From NCBI GenBank assembly GCA_947628655.1, contig CANRAS010000022.1, positions 1 to 34,874 on the forward strand: a DNA stretch of 34,874 bases, written 5' to 3'. The stretch is from an uncultured Clostridia bacterium (GTDB lineage: Bacteria; Bacillota; Clostridia; Oscillospirales; Ruminococcaceae). Positions 10,779 to 34,874 of this stretch are shown here, piece after piece (within the stretch, counting starts at the first letter, position 1; every line of letters starts with the position of its first letter). A model generated the notes under the pieces. That model was not told the origin of the DNA. It saw only the letters and a program-made list of their open reading frames with translations, and searched no databases. The position numbers were made by a program, and so were the translations under genes.

Positions 10779-10996
10779 CACATTTTTGCTCGATTTTATC
10801 TATTTAGCATAATTTTGGCGGTTTTGCTATATTCTCTTGTGCAAAAGCGGGTATTGTGTTATATAATTTTAGGCATAATGCACAAAATTCCGCTTTGCGT
10901 TTTATGGAAAGTAAACGATTACATAGAGAGGTAGCGGTTAGAAGTAAGAGATAAGAGGTAAGGGGTAAGAGAGAGTAGTTAGAGAATAGCGCGGGT

Positions 10997-11047
10997 AGTA
11001 GCTAGAGAATAGTTATTAGTAGCTAGAGAATAGTTATTAGTAGCTAG
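10997..11047. repeat. 21-bp tandem repeat
   Basis: Two perfect copies (10997-11017, 11018-11038) of AGTAGCTAGAGAATAGTTAT plus T are followed by nine bases of a third. The unit is the same CTAGAGAATAG string seen singly in many other gaps of the window. Confidence 0.85.
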
Positions 11048-11153
11048 TTTATGTGTCCCCCTACGGGGGACAATAAAGATTGTCTTAGGGTCAAGACGTT
11101 GATTGTCTTGGGAAACCAACGCCCCGCCGTCGGCGGGGCGCTGCGGTAGTGCA

Positions 11154-11226
11154 GCCCGCGTTTTGCGCAGCGCGCAAAACAACGGCGCGACAGCGCCGTT
11201 AATTCGCCGATAGGCGAATTGCGGGC
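11154..11226 (+). repeat. Cloverleaf repeat, copy D
   Basis: GCCCGC (11154-11159) pairs with GCGGGC (11221-11226). The enclosed hairpins are GTTTTGCGC/GCGCAAAAC with loop AGC, AACGGCGC/GCGCCGTT with loop GACA, and AATTCGCC/GGCGAATT with loop GATA. The first and third loops differ from other copies while the stems are unchanged. Confidence 0.85.
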
Positions 11227-11468
11227 GTACGGGCAAAGGCGCGTACACGGTCGGCGCAGGCGCGTTAATACGCGGGGCGGTAAGCTAACGCTTGATAAGG
11301 GAATGGGTCGCTTGAATTGAGCAACGCCAAACGTCCCGCCGACGGCGGGGCGTAATGACCCGCAGGTCTTACCTCTTACCTCTAACATCTTACTTCTTTG
11401 CGAAAACGCTGTGACCCAATAACTAACTACTAACAACTATTCTCTAGCTACTGCGCCCCCGCGCTCTC

Positions 11469-17952: not shown

Positions 17953-18280
17953 CCGCTCTCGCGGGCGATTAGATTGTCCTTCTAGTAGCTAGAGATTAGA
18001 GGCTAGTAGCTAGTTTAGGTGTCCGCCTACGGCGGACGGATTAGATTGTCCTTGGGTCGGAACGCCCTGACAACGTGGTGAGGTCTGGCGTTGCTCAATT
18101 CAAGCGCCCCGCGCTCTTATCCTGCGTTAGCCTGCCGTTCCGCGTATTAACGCGCCTGCGCCGCCATATACGTGCCTTTGCCCGTACGCCCGCAATTCGC
18201 CTGCGGCGAATTAACGGCGCTGTCGCGCCGTTGTTTTGCGCTCCGCGCAAAACGCGGGCTGCATAACACAACGCCCCGCC
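17953..18280. repeat. 328-bp perfect repeat, copy 2
   Basis: It is identical to 8815-9142. Here the block continues into an intact right end with a terminal inverted repeat, so this copy looks complete and the other one truncated or overwritten on its right side. Confidence 0.93.
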
Positions 18281-18336
18281 GACGGCGGGGCGTATTAAAC
18301 CAAAGACAATCTAATCCGTCCGCCGTAGGCGGACAC
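18019..18336. mobile_element. Candidate MITE-like element with 32-bp terminal inverted repeats
   Basis: Positions 18019-18050 and 18305-18336 are perfect inverted complements of 32 bp; each contains a GTCCGCC/GGCGGAC tip hairpin followed inward by GGATTAGATTGTC. Between them lie a linker, the cloverleaf (18188-18259) and a CCCCGCC/GGCGGGG hairpin. The unit is about 318 bp and has no transposase, which suggests a non-autonomous element. No convincing target-site duplication was seen, so mobility is inferred from copy number and terminal symmetry only. Confidence 0.55.
18188..18259 (-). repeat. Cloverleaf repeat, copy F
   Basis: It is identical to copy C: GCCCGC (18188-18193) pairs with GCGGGC (18254-18259) around three hairpins. 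Confidence 0.85.
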
Positions 18337-18381
18337 AATTACTATGCACTATTAACTATTAACTATAAACTGCGGAAAGCG

Positions 18382-29825: not shown

Positions 29826-29880
29826 TATAATTAAGGTGCTTATCACAAGATAAGCACCAATTTTTATTTACGGAGGGCAA
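29826..29880 (+). promoter_or_regulatory. -10 element and terminator-like leader hairpin before the recombinase
   Basis: A TATAAT at 29826-29831 has only weak -35 candidates. Five bases downstream a perfect 10-bp stem, GGTGCTTATC (29835-29844) with GATAAGCACC (29849-29858) around ACAA, is followed by AATTTTTATTTA. That is an intrinsic-terminator shape lying between promoter and start codon, or a palindromic operator. CGGAGGG (29871-29877) is the ribosome site. Confidence 0.5.
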
Positions 29881-29883
29881 ATT

Positions 29884-30723
29884 ATGCAGATACGAGAGAA
29901 CGACATAAGGAAATTCGAGCGTTATTTACGCGAGGAAGAGAAGTCCGAAATCACCATCAAGAAGTACGTCCGCGACGCGGAGAAGTTCCGCGAGTTTTGC
30001 GGGAAACGCGAACTTTCCAAAAATCTGGTGGTGGACTACAAAGTGTACTTAACAGAACGTTACAAGCCCGCAAGCGTTAATTCATTTCTTGCGGCGGCGA
30101 ACTGTTTTCTGGAATTTCTGAACGTCGGCGAGTTTAAAGTGAAACCTTTGAAACTCCAAAAACGGATGTTTTTATCCGTCGAAAAGGAACTGAAATTCAC
30201 CGAATACAAACGCCTGATTTCCAGAGCAGAAGTGGAAAACAAACAGCGCTTGAAACTTATTCTCGAAACGATAACGTCCACGGGAATACGCATTTCCGAA
30301 CTGAAATTCATCACGGTCAGCGCGGTAAGAAAAGGGTATGCCGAAGTGGATTGTAAAGGGAAATACAGGCTCGTATTCTTGCCGAAAACATTGTGCGAAG
30401 TTCTTAAAAGATACATAGCCGAGCAAAAAATAAAACGCGGCTCCGTTTTCGTTACACGAAACGGCAACCCCGTTGACCACGGCAATCTACTGCGCGAAAT
30501 GAAAAAACTCGCGGACGCGGCGAACGTAGACAAACGCAAAGTCTACCCGCATAACTTCCGTCACTTTTTCGCGAGAACGTTCTACTCAAAAACCAAGGAT
30601 TTATCGCGCCTTGCCGACATTTTGGGACACTCCAACGTGAACACCACAAAAATCTACACCGCCGAAAGCGGAAGTACGCATTTGCGGTTACTAAACAGTT
30701 TGGGATTGGTATTGACACGATAA
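29884..30723 (+). CDS. Tyrosine recombinase, probable invertase of the adjacent promoter switch
   Basis: This 279-residue XerC/D-like recombinase has an N-terminal SAM-like core-binding domain (about 5-85) and a C-terminal catalytic domain (about 100-265). All catalytic residues are present: Arg136 in STGIRISEL, a lysine in the beta hairpin CKGKYR (158-160), His223 and Arg226 in PHNFRHFFA, His249 in LGHSNVNTT and nucleophile Tyr258. Compact size, no phage genes nearby and the position next to an 18-bp inverted repeat pair argue for a promoter-inversion role rather than phage integration. Its last two codons and stop (30715-30723) lie inside the left inverted repeat. Because the repeats are perfect, inversion would leave the protein end unchanged. 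Confidence 0.9.
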   Translation: MQIRENDIRKFERYLREEEKSEITIKKYVRDAEKFREFCGKRELSKNLVVDYKVYLTERYKPASVNSFLAAANCFLEFLNVGEFKVKPLKLQKRMFLSVEKELKFTEYKRLISRAEVENKQRLKLILETITSTGIRISELKFITVSAVRKGYAEVDCKGKYRLVFLPKTLCEVLKRYIAEQKIKRGSVFVTRNGNPVDHGNLLREMKKLADAANVDKRKVYPHNFRHFFARTFYSKTKDLSRLADILGHSNVNTTKIYTAESGSTHLRLLNSLGLVLTR

Positions 30724-30732
30724 TCAGTATTA
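30715..30732 (+). repeat. Left inverted repeat of the putative promoter switch
   Basis: ACACGATAATCAGTATTA overlaps the end of the recombinase gene. It is the exact reverse complement of 30875-30892. Confidence 0.93.
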
Positions 30733-30874
30733 CGGTGTTATCGGTAACAAGGACAATCTGCTTTAAGATAAAAAATAATTCCAATTGTAAAAATGGGGTT
30801 GACAAAAATAAAAATATATGATATAATCTTAAAAGATGTGTAGTTATCGTGTTTTTGCGATTTTGCGCACAATA
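30733..30874 (+). promoter_or_regulatory. Putative invertible promoter segment
   Basis: The 142 bp between the two 18-bp inverted repeats contain a consensus promoter reading rightward. A 9-bp copy of the repeat end (TTATCGTGT) lies at 30844-30852, 40 bp before the same string in the right repeat, and a GTTA/TAAC palindrome with TTATCGG is at 30737-30748. These may be accessory recombinase-binding sites. In the orientation given the switch is ON for the downstream operon. Inversion itself is inferred from architecture. Confidence 0.8.
30799..30827 (+). promoter_or_regulatory. Consensus promoter inside the switch
   Basis: TTGACA (30799-30804) and TATAAT (30822-30827) with a 17-bp spacer make a perfect sigma-A promoter. 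Transcription should start near 30834, giving a leader of about 70 nt that crosses the right inverted repeat before ATG 30908. Confidence 0.88.
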
Positions 30875-30892
30875 TAATACTGATTATCGTGT
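30875..30892 (-). repeat. Right inverted repeat of the putative promoter switch
   Basis: TAATACTGATTATCGTGT is the perfect reverse complement of 30715-30732. It lies in the 5' leader of the next gene, ahead of GAGGG, so inversion would not disturb the ribosome site. Confidence 0.93.
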
Positions 30893-30907
30893 GAAAGAGG
30901 GCTGATT

Positions 30908-31648: not shown

Positions 31649-32626
31649 ATGTCTTGTTTATATATAGTCAGCACATATTATCACGCGTTGATAACCTGTG
31701 TAAAACAGCTGACAGACAAGCGCCCCTCGGATATTCTTGTGACAGATTATATTCCCGAAGGAAAAAATCTTGTCGAACGTCTGGATGACAGCAGTTTGTT
31801 TGCGGAGTGCAGCTTTGTTGGGAAAATATCAGAGTATATACCGACAAGCCGTGTGGACAAGCTATTTTATCTTCACTCAAAAAATACGGCGTTAATTGAA
31901 AAACAGTTGACGTTTGATTTTGAGAAATATGACGAGATAAACCTGTTTCACGATGACATCTGGACGGCTCACTACCTCAAAAGCAAGCGTATAAAATATA
32001 GGCTTATTGAGGATTCCCTCGACTTTTTTAAAAGCGTAAACAAAACGCATTTCAGATATATGCTGCCTAAAAGCAGGATAAAACTGCTTATAAAGCGCGT
32101 TTTCAGAATTGGCTATGTATTTTTCGGCTACGACAGCTGTGTGACTGAAGTTGAAGTGAATGACAAATTCGGTCTAAACGCGGGAGTAGCTCCAAAAAGC
32201 AAGCTGAATGAAGTCCCGCGCAAAGCGCTTTTCGAGAAATTGACGCGAGAAGATACCGATGTTATTTTAAAGATATTCGCTCGTGAAGTTCCGAAGTTTG
32301 AGCCTAAAAAATCCGTACTTCTTCTTACTCAGCCGATGTTTGAGGACGGATATGTAGGTTCTCGCGAGGAGCAGATAAGGATATATAAACGTATGGCGTT
32401 TCAAGTGCAAAGCGGCGAAACGCTTGTTATAAAGCCCCACCCGCGGGATTTCACAGACTACACCGAGGCATTCCCCAAAGCAATTGTACTGGATAAAAAT
32501 ATGCCCGCAGAAGTACTCGCAATCAGCGGATTAGGGAATTTTAAAAGGGTGATTAGTGTGAGTTCCAGTGCGGAAAATGGGCTGCTTATGCTGAAAAGTT
32601 TATGTAAACGAAAAAACATTATTTGA
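31649..32626 (+). CDS. Putative sialyltransferase-like glycosyltransferase
   Basis: This 325-residue cytosolic GT-B-type protein begins with CLYIVSTYYHALITCVKQL, as in GT52-type and polysialyltransferase-like enzymes. It carries the two hallmark motifs of bacterial sialyltransferases of that clan: an HP motif in LVIKPHPRDFTDY (about 271-283) and a serine motif in VISVSSSAENGLL (about 302-314). It would transfer a CMP-activated nonulosonate to a glycan acceptor. The two genes after it make such a donor, which supports the call. AAGGAG precedes the ATG. The linkage and acceptor are unknown. Confidence 0.6.
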   Translation: MSCLYIVSTYYHALITCVKQLTDKRPSDILVTDYIPEGKNLVERLDDSSLFAECSFVGKISEYIPTSRVDKLFYLHSKNTALIEKQLTFDFEKYDEINLFHDDIWTAHYLKSKRIKYRLIEDSLDFFKSVNKTHFRYMLPKSRIKLLIKRVFRIGYVFFGYDSCVTEVEVNDKFGLNAGVAPKSKLNEVPRKALFEKLTREDTDVILKIFAREVPKFEPKKSVLLLTQPMFEDGYVGSREEQIRIYKRMAFQVQSGETLVIKPHPRDFTDYTEAFPKAIVLDKNMPAEVLAISGLGNFKRVISVSSSAENGLLMLKSLCKRKNII

Positions 32627-32680: not shown

Positions 32681-33556
32681 ATGTCTATTGTTAAACCTTA
32701 TATTATCGCAGAGGCGGGCTGTAATCATATGGGGCAAATGAAGATTGCCCACGACCTTATTGAAACAGCGGCTCACTATTGTAAAGCCGACGCTATTAAA
32801 TTCCAAAAGCGCTGTCCAAAGGAATTGCTGACGAAGGAGCAATACAACGCTCCGCACCCAAATCCTGTTAATTCGTATGGGAAAACATATGGGGAACATC
32901 GCGAATTTTTGGAGTTTACTGTTGAACAGCATGCACAATTAAAAAAATGGTGCGAGGACGCCGGGATTACTTATTCGACTTCCGTATGGGATATGACCAG
33001 CGCAAAAGAAATTGCGTCGCTGAAACCTCAGTTTATTAAAATTCCCTCTGCATGCAACACTCACTTTGAAATGCTCAAATGGCTATGCAATAACTATGAG
33101 GGCGAAATTCAACTTTCTTTCGGTATGACTACTCGCGAAGAAGAGGAGAAAATAGTTGAGCTTTTTGAGGCAAACGGACGAGCTAAGGATTTGATTTTGT
33201 TTAGCTGTACATCGGGTTATCCCGTGCCTTATGAAGATGTTTGTCTTTTGGAAATTTCACGAATACGCGAGGCGTATGAGCATCGCGTAAAGGCTATAGG
33301 TTTTTCGGGACATCATCTCGGAACGGCAATAGATGTTGCTGCGTATGTACTGGGGGCTAGCGTTATTGAGCGCCACTATACCCTTGACCGTACATGGAAA
33401 GGTACAGACCATGCCGCTTCGCTTGAACCCGACGGTATGCATATGCTCGTGAAAGATTTAAATTCTGCTTATCTTGCGCTTACTTATAAAAAGGAAGAGA
33501 TTTTGCCGATTGAACAGGTTCAGCGCGACAAATTGAAATTTAGAGGAACTAAATAA
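32681..33556 (+). CDS. neuB: Sialic acid (nonulosonate) synthase NeuB, short form
   Basis: This 291-residue TIM-barrel enzyme condenses phosphoenolpyruvate with an N-acyl-mannosamine-type sugar or its 6-phosphate. Motifs are IAEAGCNHMGQMKIAHDLI, DAIKFQKR, STSVWDMTSA, FIKIPSACNTHFEML, LSFGMTTREE, FSCTSGYPVP and GFSGHHLGTAI, with IERHYTLDRTWKGTDHAASL. The usual C-terminal SAF (antifreeze-like) domain of about 60 residues is missing; the protein ends PIEQVQRDKLKFRGTK. In canonical NeuB the SAF domain caps the partner active site, so this is a variant form. AGGAGG precedes the ATG. Its stop codon shares one base with the next start. Confidence 0.9.
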   Translation: MSIVKPYIIAEAGCNHMGQMKIAHDLIETAAHYCKADAIKFQKRCPKELLTKEQYNAPHPNPVNSYGKTYGEHREFLEFTVEQHAQLKKWCEDAGITYSTSVWDMTSAKEIASLKPQFIKIPSACNTHFEMLKWLCNNYEGEIQLSFGMTTREEEEKIVELFEANGRAKDLILFSCTSGYPVPYEDVCLLEISRIREAYEHRVKAIGFSGHHLGTAIDVAAYVLGASVIERHYTLDRTWKGTDHAASLEPDGMHMLVKDLNSAYLALTYKKEEILPIEQVQRDKLKFRGTK

Positions 33557-34761
33557 TGGATAATTATATTGCATTTATCCCTGTTCGGGGAGGCAGTAAG
33601 TCTATCCCGCTGAAAAACATTCGCAAAATTCACGGTCGTCCTCTTGTTTACTGGGTGTTGGACGCTGCTGTTAAGTGCGCAAAAATTGACAGAGTTTATT
33701 TGTGTACCGACAGTAAAATTATTAGTGACAAGATAGAAGAATATATTTGTCAAAATAATTGCAAGGAAAAGCTGCGCTGCATTGATCGTCCGCCTGAAAC
33801 GGCAACGGACAACGCATCGACAGAATCTGCGCTTGTTTACTTTGGGCAGCAATATGCTGATTTTAACCATATAATTCTAATTCAAGCGACCAGTCCGCTT
33901 TTAACGGCAGATGATTTGACAAACGCCATTGCCAATTACGAATTAAACGGGTATGACAGCTTGCTGTCGGTCGTGCGTCAAAAGCGGTTTTGCTGGACAA
34001 AAGGCACGGACGGATTTTCGCCGATAAATTACAATGTAAACAGCCGCCCCCGCAGGCAGGAGTTTGACGGATATCTCGTTGAAAACGGTGCGTTTTATAT
34101 TAATACAAGAGAAAATCTTTTGCGGGATAAGTGTCGTTTGTCGGGGAAAATAGGCGTTTATGAAATGTCGGAAGACGCCTATTTTGAAATTGACGAACCG
34201 AGCGATTGGGTTATAATTGAACAATTGCTTAAAAACAGAACGGGACACAACGCCGATTTAGAGTCAAAGCTTAGTCGAATTAAAATGTTATTAACGGATT
34301 GCGACGGCGTTCTGACTGACGGCGGGATGTACTATTCCGAGAACGGTGACGAACTGAAAAAGTTCAACACCAAAGACGGCAACGGAATACAAATGCTGAG
34401 AAACCACGGGATATTTACAGGTATCATTACAGGCGAATCTGTAAAGTTAAACCTTAGGAGAGCCGAGAAACTGAAGATTGACGAAATACATATAGGTGTT
34501 CAAGACAAGGCAGAAGTTGTCGGGTCAATTTTGGAGAAGTACAATCTTTCATGGGACGAGGTTGCGTATATAGGCGATGATACGAACGACTTATCCGTAA
34601 TGAAGAAAGTCGGTCTTAGTTGCTGTCCAAACGACGCTGCTGAATGTGTCCGCCGCACAGCCGATTACATATCTCCATTCAACGGCGGCGCGGGCGTTGT
34701 GCGGGATGTGGCGGAGAAAATTTTGAGTAGAATTATACCAAATGCGGAGGTTCAGATATGA
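33556..34761 (+). CDS. neuA: CMP-sialate synthetase fused to a KdsC-like HAD phosphatase
   Basis: This 401-residue bifunctional protein has an N-terminal cytidylyltransferase (about 1-228): FIPVRGGSKSIPLKNI (CTP loop, 11-21), LIQATSPLLTADDL, and ENGAFYI with YEIDEP-like metal and acceptor residues. The C-terminal HAD domain (about 240-395) has the DxD motif LLTDCDGVLTDGG (Asp248, Asp250), motif II GIITGES, Lys318 and motif IV YIGDDTNDLSV (Asp341, Asp342, Asp345), like KDO-8-phosphate phosphatase. All HAD catalytic residues are intact. The fusion suggests that the synthase product is a 9-phosphate that is dephosphorylated and then CMP-activated. Vertebrate CMP-sialic acid synthetases have a comparable two-domain layout. 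It overlaps the next gene by ATGA. Confidence 0.92.
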   Translation: MDNYIAFIPVRGGSKSIPLKNIRKIHGRPLVYWVLDAAVKCAKIDRVYLCTDSKIISDKIEEYICQNNCKEKLRCIDRPPETATDNASTESALVYFGQQYADFNHIILIQATSPLLTADDLTNAIANYELNGYDSLLSVVRQKRFCWTKGTDGFSPINYNVNSRPRRQEFDGYLVENGAFYINTRENLLRDKCRLSGKIGVYEMSEDAYFEIDEPSDWVIIEQLLKNRTGHNADLESKLSRIKMLLTDCDGVLTDGGMYYSENGDELKKFNTKDGNGIQMLRNHGIFTGIITGESVKLNLRRAEKLKIDEIHIGVQDKAEVVGSILEKYNLSWDEVAYIGDDTNDLSVMKKVGLSCCPNDAAECVRRTADYISPFNGGAGVVRDVAEKILSRIIPNAEVQI

Positions 34762-34874
34762 TTGAAAAATACGGAAAGCCTTTTCAAAGAAAAGAAGTAG
34801 GCAGGACTTTAAATTCAATAAAACAATCGATTGAACAACATAGAGTTCGATCCGAAATGTGCTACTTACCCCCC
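34758..34874 (+). CDS. Partial CDS at window end, next gene of the glycan operon
   Basis: Thirty-nine codons are open to the window edge, starting MIEKYGKPFQRKEVGRTLNS. GGAGG at about 34746-34750 and a 4-bp ATGA overlap with the CMP-sialate synthetase gene support a real, translationally coupled start. I do not recognise the family from this fragment. Confidence 0.6.
   Translation, partial: MIEKYGKPFQRKEVGRTLNSIKQSIEQHRVRSEMCYLPP

Follow-up and report, generated by a model that had tools for sequence, protein, structure and literature searches.

A putative recombinase-controlled invertible promoter upstream of a sialic-acid-type operon in an uncultured Clostridia bacterium

Genes and features of the locus

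We analysed a stretch of 34,874 nucleotides from the assembly of an uncultured Clostridia bacterium (GCA_947628655.1, contig CANRAS010000022.1), referred to below as the window. Towards its end lie a tyrosine recombinase gene (P0001), a short segment bounded by inverted repeats, and an operon that starts with P0002. The coordinates of these features, and of related cassettes on two other contigs of the same genome (C9 and C3), are given in Table 1.

Table 1. Features of the putative switch in the window and of sister cassettes elsewhere in the genome. Positions without a contig name refer to the window.
Feature	Position	Strand	Remarks
Recombinase leader	29826-29858	+	candidate -10 box TATAAT (29826-29831), hairpin (29835-29858), T-run
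P0001, tyrosine recombinase, 279 aa, candidate invertase	29884-30723	+	open frame, six catalytic positions present
Left inverted repeat	30715-30732	+	predicted recombination site, centre CAGT
Predicted invertible segment	30733-30874		142 bp
Exact promoter TTGACA-17-TATAAT	30799-30827	+	aimed into the operon (ON)
Right inverted repeat	30875-30892	-	predicted recombination site, centre CAGT as in the left repeat
P0002, recombinase paralogue, 238 aa	30908-31624	+	first gene of the putatively switched operon
P0003, glycosyltransferase family 52 / polysialyltransferase-like	31649-32626	+
P0004, NeuB-family nonulosonate synthase	32681-33556	+
P0005, NeuA-type cytidylyltransferase fused to KdsC/KDN-9-phosphatase-like HAD domain	33556-34761	+
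Possible further operon ORF, start	34758-34874	+	cut by the contig end
C9 sister cassette, copy 1	C9:22282-22457		aimed at MaoC and SDR genes
C9 sister cassette, copy 2	C9:69830-70005	opposite to copy 1	near a GMP-synthase-like gene
C3 decayed cassette copy	C3:17054-17227		same orientation as the window

The inverted repeats match at 18 of 18 positions, and the match extends to 30712-30732 and 30875-30895 at 95% of 21 positions. The left repeat covers the stop codon of P0001 (30721-30723) and the right repeat lies upstream of the start of P0002 (30908). The promoter in the segment scored 12/12. These results bear out the initial annotation, which had placed perfect 18-bp inverted repeats around 142 bp, a perfect TTGACA-17-TATAAT promoter aimed into the operon, the left repeat over the stop of an intact tyrosine recombinase, and the right repeat in the leader of the next operon. 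The window hence contains a promoter bounded by inverted repeats, one of the features expected of a recombinase-controlled invertible promoter.

Resampling the window 40 times with a first-order Markov model never produced inverted 18-mers at most 500 bp apart, and when the 142-bp segment was shuffled 20,000 times, an exact consensus promoter on either strand arose in four cases. On the plus strand of the window, 30799-30827 is the only exact TTGACA/TATAAT pair with a spacer of 16-18 nt; the minus strand contains one. The inner half-sites of the two repeats are unequal (CGGTGT and TATTGT), and each repeat forms an imperfect palindrome with its inner neighbour, the two palindromes flanking the promoter. 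Other long inverted repeats occur in the window at 10937-11452 and 18004-18351, with arms of up to 40 and 64 nt, respectively. Among the neighbouring genes scanned beside them there was no recombinase, so that a repeat pair by itself is not proof of a switch.

The initial annotation had also described a sialic-acid-type glycan operon. This holds for the nonulosonate genes from 31649 onwards, but the operon opens with P0002, a degenerate recombinase that had been missed. The NeuB and NeuA domains that characterize a sialic-acid-type pathway are both present (PF03102, 231.2 bits; PF02348, 84.7 bits). TIGR03569 scored 191.8 against a cut-off of 399.65 and the KDN-9-phosphatase model 171.5 against 180, while the KdsC-type subfamily model alone exceeded its cut-off (153.3 against 106.95). 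Because the equivalog cut-offs were not reached, a Neu5Ac-, Kdn- or legionaminate-like sugar are all possible. One copy of NeuB was found in the genome, which is 95.6% complete, and the operon is apparently the only nonulosonate pathway of the cell.

The recombinase and its degenerate paralogue

P0001 belongs to the tyrosine recombinases (PF00589, 91.9 bits against a cut-off of 27.1). An alignment of 18 rows assigned its catalytic set to R136, K160, H223, R226, H249 and Y258, and all six residues were invariant in 17 of the 18 rows, P0002 being the exception. The protein is Xer-like: its best solved relatives are XerC-like, XerA and XerD proteins, and its best curated models are XerA, XerC and XerD, all below their cut-offs. 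It matched the fim-type invertase models PRK09870 and PRK09871 at 24.8 and 20.4 bits, where the curated cut-offs are 221 and 222. Named relatives in plasmid-collection records came from Monoglobus (52.9%) and from Pusillibacter and Subdoligranulum (about 44%), and a scan of genome contigs with P0001 gave two loci from Nostoc, 26-28% identical. In the leader of the gene, a hairpin and a T-run separate the candidate -10 box from the recombinase ribosome site. This arrangement is alike in the leaders of the window and of contigs C3 and C27 (loci L009 and L022), and is possibly an attenuator or an mRNA stabiliser.

P0002 shares 36% with P0001 over 231 positions and lacks the R-K-H-R-H-Y set of active tyrosine recombinases. 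Three catalytic positions are changed (R to Q, H to Q and R to K), a deletion has removed the segment of the last His and the nucleophilic Tyr, and the catalytic K is aligned to R, at a position that an adjacent K leaves uncertain. The N-terminal domain is retained by homology. A structure model of P0002, built from a two-row alignment, had a mean pLDDT of 58 and was confident in the N-terminal part alone.

The truncation and the loss of the catalytic positions tip the balance slightly towards P0002 being a decaying, functionless leftover of a second, tandem recombinase that lost its own switch by deletion. Its distribution agrees with such decay, since P0002 was present in the genome of the window alone, judged by the search of 100 relatives and by the matches listed from a 394-genome sample of the order. 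Neither set showed, among the matches listed, another truncated paralogue of this type, and the best of these matches reached at most 41% identity in the 100 relatives and at most 40% in the order sample. Other short P0002-type matches, among those examined, lay at contig ends or carried stops, and a scan of viral contigs yielded no relatives of P0002. Furthermore, the copy of P0002 on contig C3 has a frameshift and a stop.

Against a functionless remnant, the frame of P0002 in the window is open over 238 codons, and its comparison with the C3 copy points to constraint. Over 176 codons we counted 26 synonymous and 29 nonsynonymous changes, which corresponds to a dN/dS of 0.28; the nonsynonymous share (29 of 55) compares with 78% expected under neutrality (p 3e-5). 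Of the 25 differing residues, one of them a stop, 13 were assigned to C3, five to the window copy and seven to neither, by majority and with some thin votes. Most of the 18 assigned amino-acid changes hence fell in the C3 copy. The constraint may be older than the loss of catalysis. The C3 copy keeps the catalytic Arg, and therefore this residue was probably lost in the lineage of the window.

Layout and orientation in relatives

From the fetched loci of relatives we retained 84 distinct recombinase loci with the C-terminus present, after collapsing identical 300-nt 3' ends, and 70 of these had at least 570 bp of downstream sequence. With a score of at least 16, a repeat pair was detected downstream of the recombinase in 58 of the 70 loci, one of which is a palindromic contig of genome G054, compared with 0 of 49 upstream controls. 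In 12 of the 70 loci the downstream pair was absent. Raising the score to at least 20 left 46 of the 70.

In the pair-bearing loci, the 3' end of the recombinase gene faces the switch, so that a promoter in the OFF orientation would be convergent with this gene. Judged from this layout, such convergence fits the suggestion of the initial annotation that the OFF state might lock itself. Among the 57 loci that have the pair within 260 bp, the better promoter pointed toward the recombinase in 42 and toward the operon in 12, with three ties. When only loci with a strong promoter were considered (at least 11/12 in one direction versus at most 9), these numbers were 25 and three, and the three operon-directed loci were the window and two loci of genome G095. 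The direction counts are not independent, as they include several near-identical G095 copies.

In G095, two homologous cassettes have opposite orientations. The segment of L081 aligns to that of L082 in inverted orientation over 237 bp (71%) with the recombinase side fixed, and a 58-bp match in the same orientation lies within this alignment. The G054 contig (C19, 17949 bp) reads as flank, segment and reversed flank, centred on the switch, and its palindrome is perfect at the positions compared (4844/4844 and 4200/4200). It can reflect both orientations in the reads or an assembly artefact. Several of the recombinase copies in G095 have near-identical switches; of its 19 recombinase matches, the 15 listed had 36-39% identity, and of the 11 in genome G066, the seven listed had 36-42%.

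Comparison of the inner segments of 12 relatives with that of the window gave 5 of 24 scores above the 95% shuffle level (three in the same orientation, two inverted) and none above the best of 200 shuffles. With no clear alignment to these segments, their orientation relative to the window is read from the promoter only. Within the genus, 14 of 43 genomes matched the DNA of the switch plus P0002. Among the other 42, these matches spanned only about 29-59 bp and were mostly promoter-like, so that no sibling orientation was readable. A pattern scan of viral contigs gave no match to the inner segment.

Contig breaks after the recombinase gene were considered as a signature of mixed orientations and judged weak. 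Fourteen loci had too little downstream sequence, and 13 of them end 71-200 bp past the recombinase gene. Seven of the 14 belong to G066 and G095, both multi-copy genomes; of the remaining seven, only L130 and L174 end exactly at a site, as judged by eye. In L117, L130, L172 and L174, the site occurs twice in direct orientation on the recombinase side of the switch, with about 40-100 bp between the copies.

Sister cassettes in the same genome

Contig C9 carries two copies of a sister cassette (loci L184 and L208). The cassette resembles the recombinase 3' end and cassette of the window in the same orientation (70% over 137 columns), and the part of the window concerned is 30694-30827, which comprises the recombinase 3' end, the left repeat and the segment up to the promoter. 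The flanks of the two C9 copies are identical over 58 bp on the left, where the contig ends, and 1123 bp on the right. Between the repeats the segment is inverted with zero mismatches over 136 bases, counted after a one-base register shift due to the chosen boundaries. The promoter points toward the operon in one copy and away from it in the other, and the exchange falls inside a 15-bp core common to both sites. The half-sites of C9 are unequal, similar to those of the window.

The two C9 copies speak for inversion occurring naturally in this organism, at a sister site. The second copy lies at a contig end, and therefore strain mixture or misassembly are possible sources of it, but these too would need both orientations in the sample. 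Whereas the C9 segment is present in both orientations, its homologue in the window has one orientation in the assembly, and its inverted form was seen in no read, strain or sibling. The initial annotation had proposed to search related genomes for the opposite orientation. The genus offered only the short matches described above, and the inverted sister was found in the same assembly.

Beside the C9 cassette, only about 25 bp resemble the end of a recombinase gene. Without a recombinase gene of its own, its flipping needs an enzyme in trans, for which the candidates are P0001, a paralogue on contig C27 and three further recombinase genes with open frames. P0001 would be the best candidate, because its 3' end resembles the remnant at C9. 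The C27 gene is open, lies at the end of its contig and is 66% identical to P0001; the C27 end had no second place in the genome and no clear site was seen there.

The only other near-identical copy of the window cassette, on contig C3, is decayed. Its recombinase has a large internal deletion, its site centres read CGGT versus CAGT, and its promoter lacks 6 bp between -35 and -10. Downstream of its P0002 copy, a fragment matches an acyltransferase (MBOAT). A site pattern derived from the window, C3 and C9 sites matched 16 places in the genome, compared with none for the reversed pattern. Fourteen of the 16 lie at the source cassettes by construction, except for the second C9 copy, which the pattern revealed, and the remaining two are single places.

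Genes downstream of the switches

We scanned 30 downstream proteins of relatives. The first long gene encoded an AAA ATPase in four genomes of the same genus (G030, G014, G020 and G023; loci L103, L104, L106 and L108, respectively). In G030, the one genome in which the following genes were scanned, it was followed by eCIS-core and Pvc16 proteins. These loci may thus encode extracellular contractile injection systems that are subject to phase variation. In the assemblies, their stronger promoters are aimed away from the genes on the AAA ATPase side. In G095, all five downstream proteins scanned were prepilin-like (N_methyl), which suggests a family of surface proteins that may be switched independently.

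Other downstream genes encoded cohesin/dockerin, C-type lectin/M23, LRR and S-layer proteins, UDP-galactopyranose mutase and an epimerase. Less obviously surface-related were a helicase, a zinc-finger DUF4379 protein, a DUF2589 protein and a ParA-type ATPase, and seven of the 30 proteins had no match. Hence, the same switch module precedes very different genes in relatives, including injection-system-type genes in the genus. Judged by title and the opening of the abstract, none of the papers found on invertible promoters with contractile injection systems, or with sialic acid and recombinases, describes this system.

Discussion

Given the anatomy of the locus, the catalytic residues of P0001, the recurring layout and the inversion of the sister segment, all of which were observed, the 142-bp segment is very probably a site-specific, reversible promoter switch that controls the operon and is most likely flipped by P0001. 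A tyrosine recombinase, most likely P0001, would pair the two inverted sites and invert the segment. Each site would consist of a four-base centre between the arms ACANNATAAT and ATTAY, and the centres should match between the sites. In the assembled orientation, the promoter would drive P0002 first, followed by the polysialyltransferase-like gene, NeuB and the NeuA-phosphatase fusion, and so switch on what is apparently the only nonulosonate pathway of the cell. With the segment inverted, the operon would be without this promoter, whose transcripts would enter the recombinase gene in antisense at its 3' end. We infer in particular that the window segment itself flips, that P0001 is the enzyme, that matching centres are required and that the operon is then off. 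The recombinase-controlled invertible promoter proposed by the initial annotation is thus supported by the layout in 58 of 70 loci, by C9 in both orientations and by the opposite pair in G095.

A less probable reading, which we consider unlikely, is that the segment once flipped and is now fixed ON in this lineage, with its half-sites diverging or its recombinase inactive here. The C3 copy, visibly decayed and in the same orientation, could be an example of such a fate, and the unequal inner half-sites of the window and the degenerate recombinase at the head of the operon are in line with it. However, P0001 is open with all catalytic residues, the 18-bp repeats and their centres are identical, and the C9 sister occurs in both orientations with half-sites that are similarly unequal. 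It is highly improbable that P0001 and/or P0002 instead act as transcription factors on the repeats, which would then be operators of a segment that stays fixed. The imperfect palindromes around the promoter and the confidently predicted N-terminal domain of the catalytically deficient P0002 would suit such a function, but the homologous C9 segment is inverted, the G095 cassettes have opposite orientations and catalytic conservation in P0001 is complete.

Within the preferred reading of a reversible switch, P0002 and antisense transcription might both have a role. Antisense transcription in the OFF state could damp flipping, while the dead P0002 made in the ON state could bind the sites and block or bias the live enzyme. 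We regard this double latch as speculative and rather improbable. If true, each state would delay its own reversal, and catalytically dead recombinases would form a class of state-dependent regulators of inversion; if the dead paralogue is functional, it would offer an inversion switch a simple means to hold its ON state. More generally, our results put a sialic-acid-type pathway, apparently the only one of this Clostridia-related species, under the control of a promoter switch that is probably stochastic. Moreover, because the sister switch occurs in two orientations in one assembly, inversion can be tested from reads, without cultures.

In the fim switch of Escherichia coli, the tyrosine recombinases FimB and FimE act on an invertible promoter that controls a surface structure. 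The window shares this working principle, whereas P0001 falls far below the cut-offs of the fim-type invertase models. In Bacteroides, inverted promoters lie upstream of surface glycan operons of the capsule. Bacteroides belongs to another phylum, while the named relatives of P0001 are Clostridia, and the window differs in its sigma-70-type TTGACA/TATAAT promoter and adjacent Xer-like gene. These capsule promoter switches also form part of the background of an inverton survey of the hCom2 community (PMC11892184).

In that survey, inverton group 139, linked to invertase group 35, comprises 33 invertons, of which 32 are from Clostridia and nearly all lie near a tyrosine-type recombinase of one group (PMC11892184). 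Calling of the hCom2 invertons relied on reads that support both orientations, and the promoters within them were proposed to switch genes (PMC11892184). Like the window, this group joins Clostridia invertons to a tyrosine recombinase, a likeness by description rather than by repeat motif; the parts consulted mention neither a dead recombinase paralogue in the switched operon nor a sialic-acid operon (PMC11892184). In another study, Clostridia made up 14 of the 15 Firmicutes samples that were positive for inversion, and RecV of Clostridioides difficile inverts short segments at the cwpV and flagellar switches, thereby controlling surface structures (PMC5903667). RecV, again likened by description, serves several sites (PMC5903667), whereas in the window the recombinase gene lies immediately upstream of the putative switch. 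Recombinase-linked invertons of Clostridia are therefore already published, and the putative switch in the window adds a member to a known kind; its possibly new part is the dead paralogue that would be expressed in the ON state.
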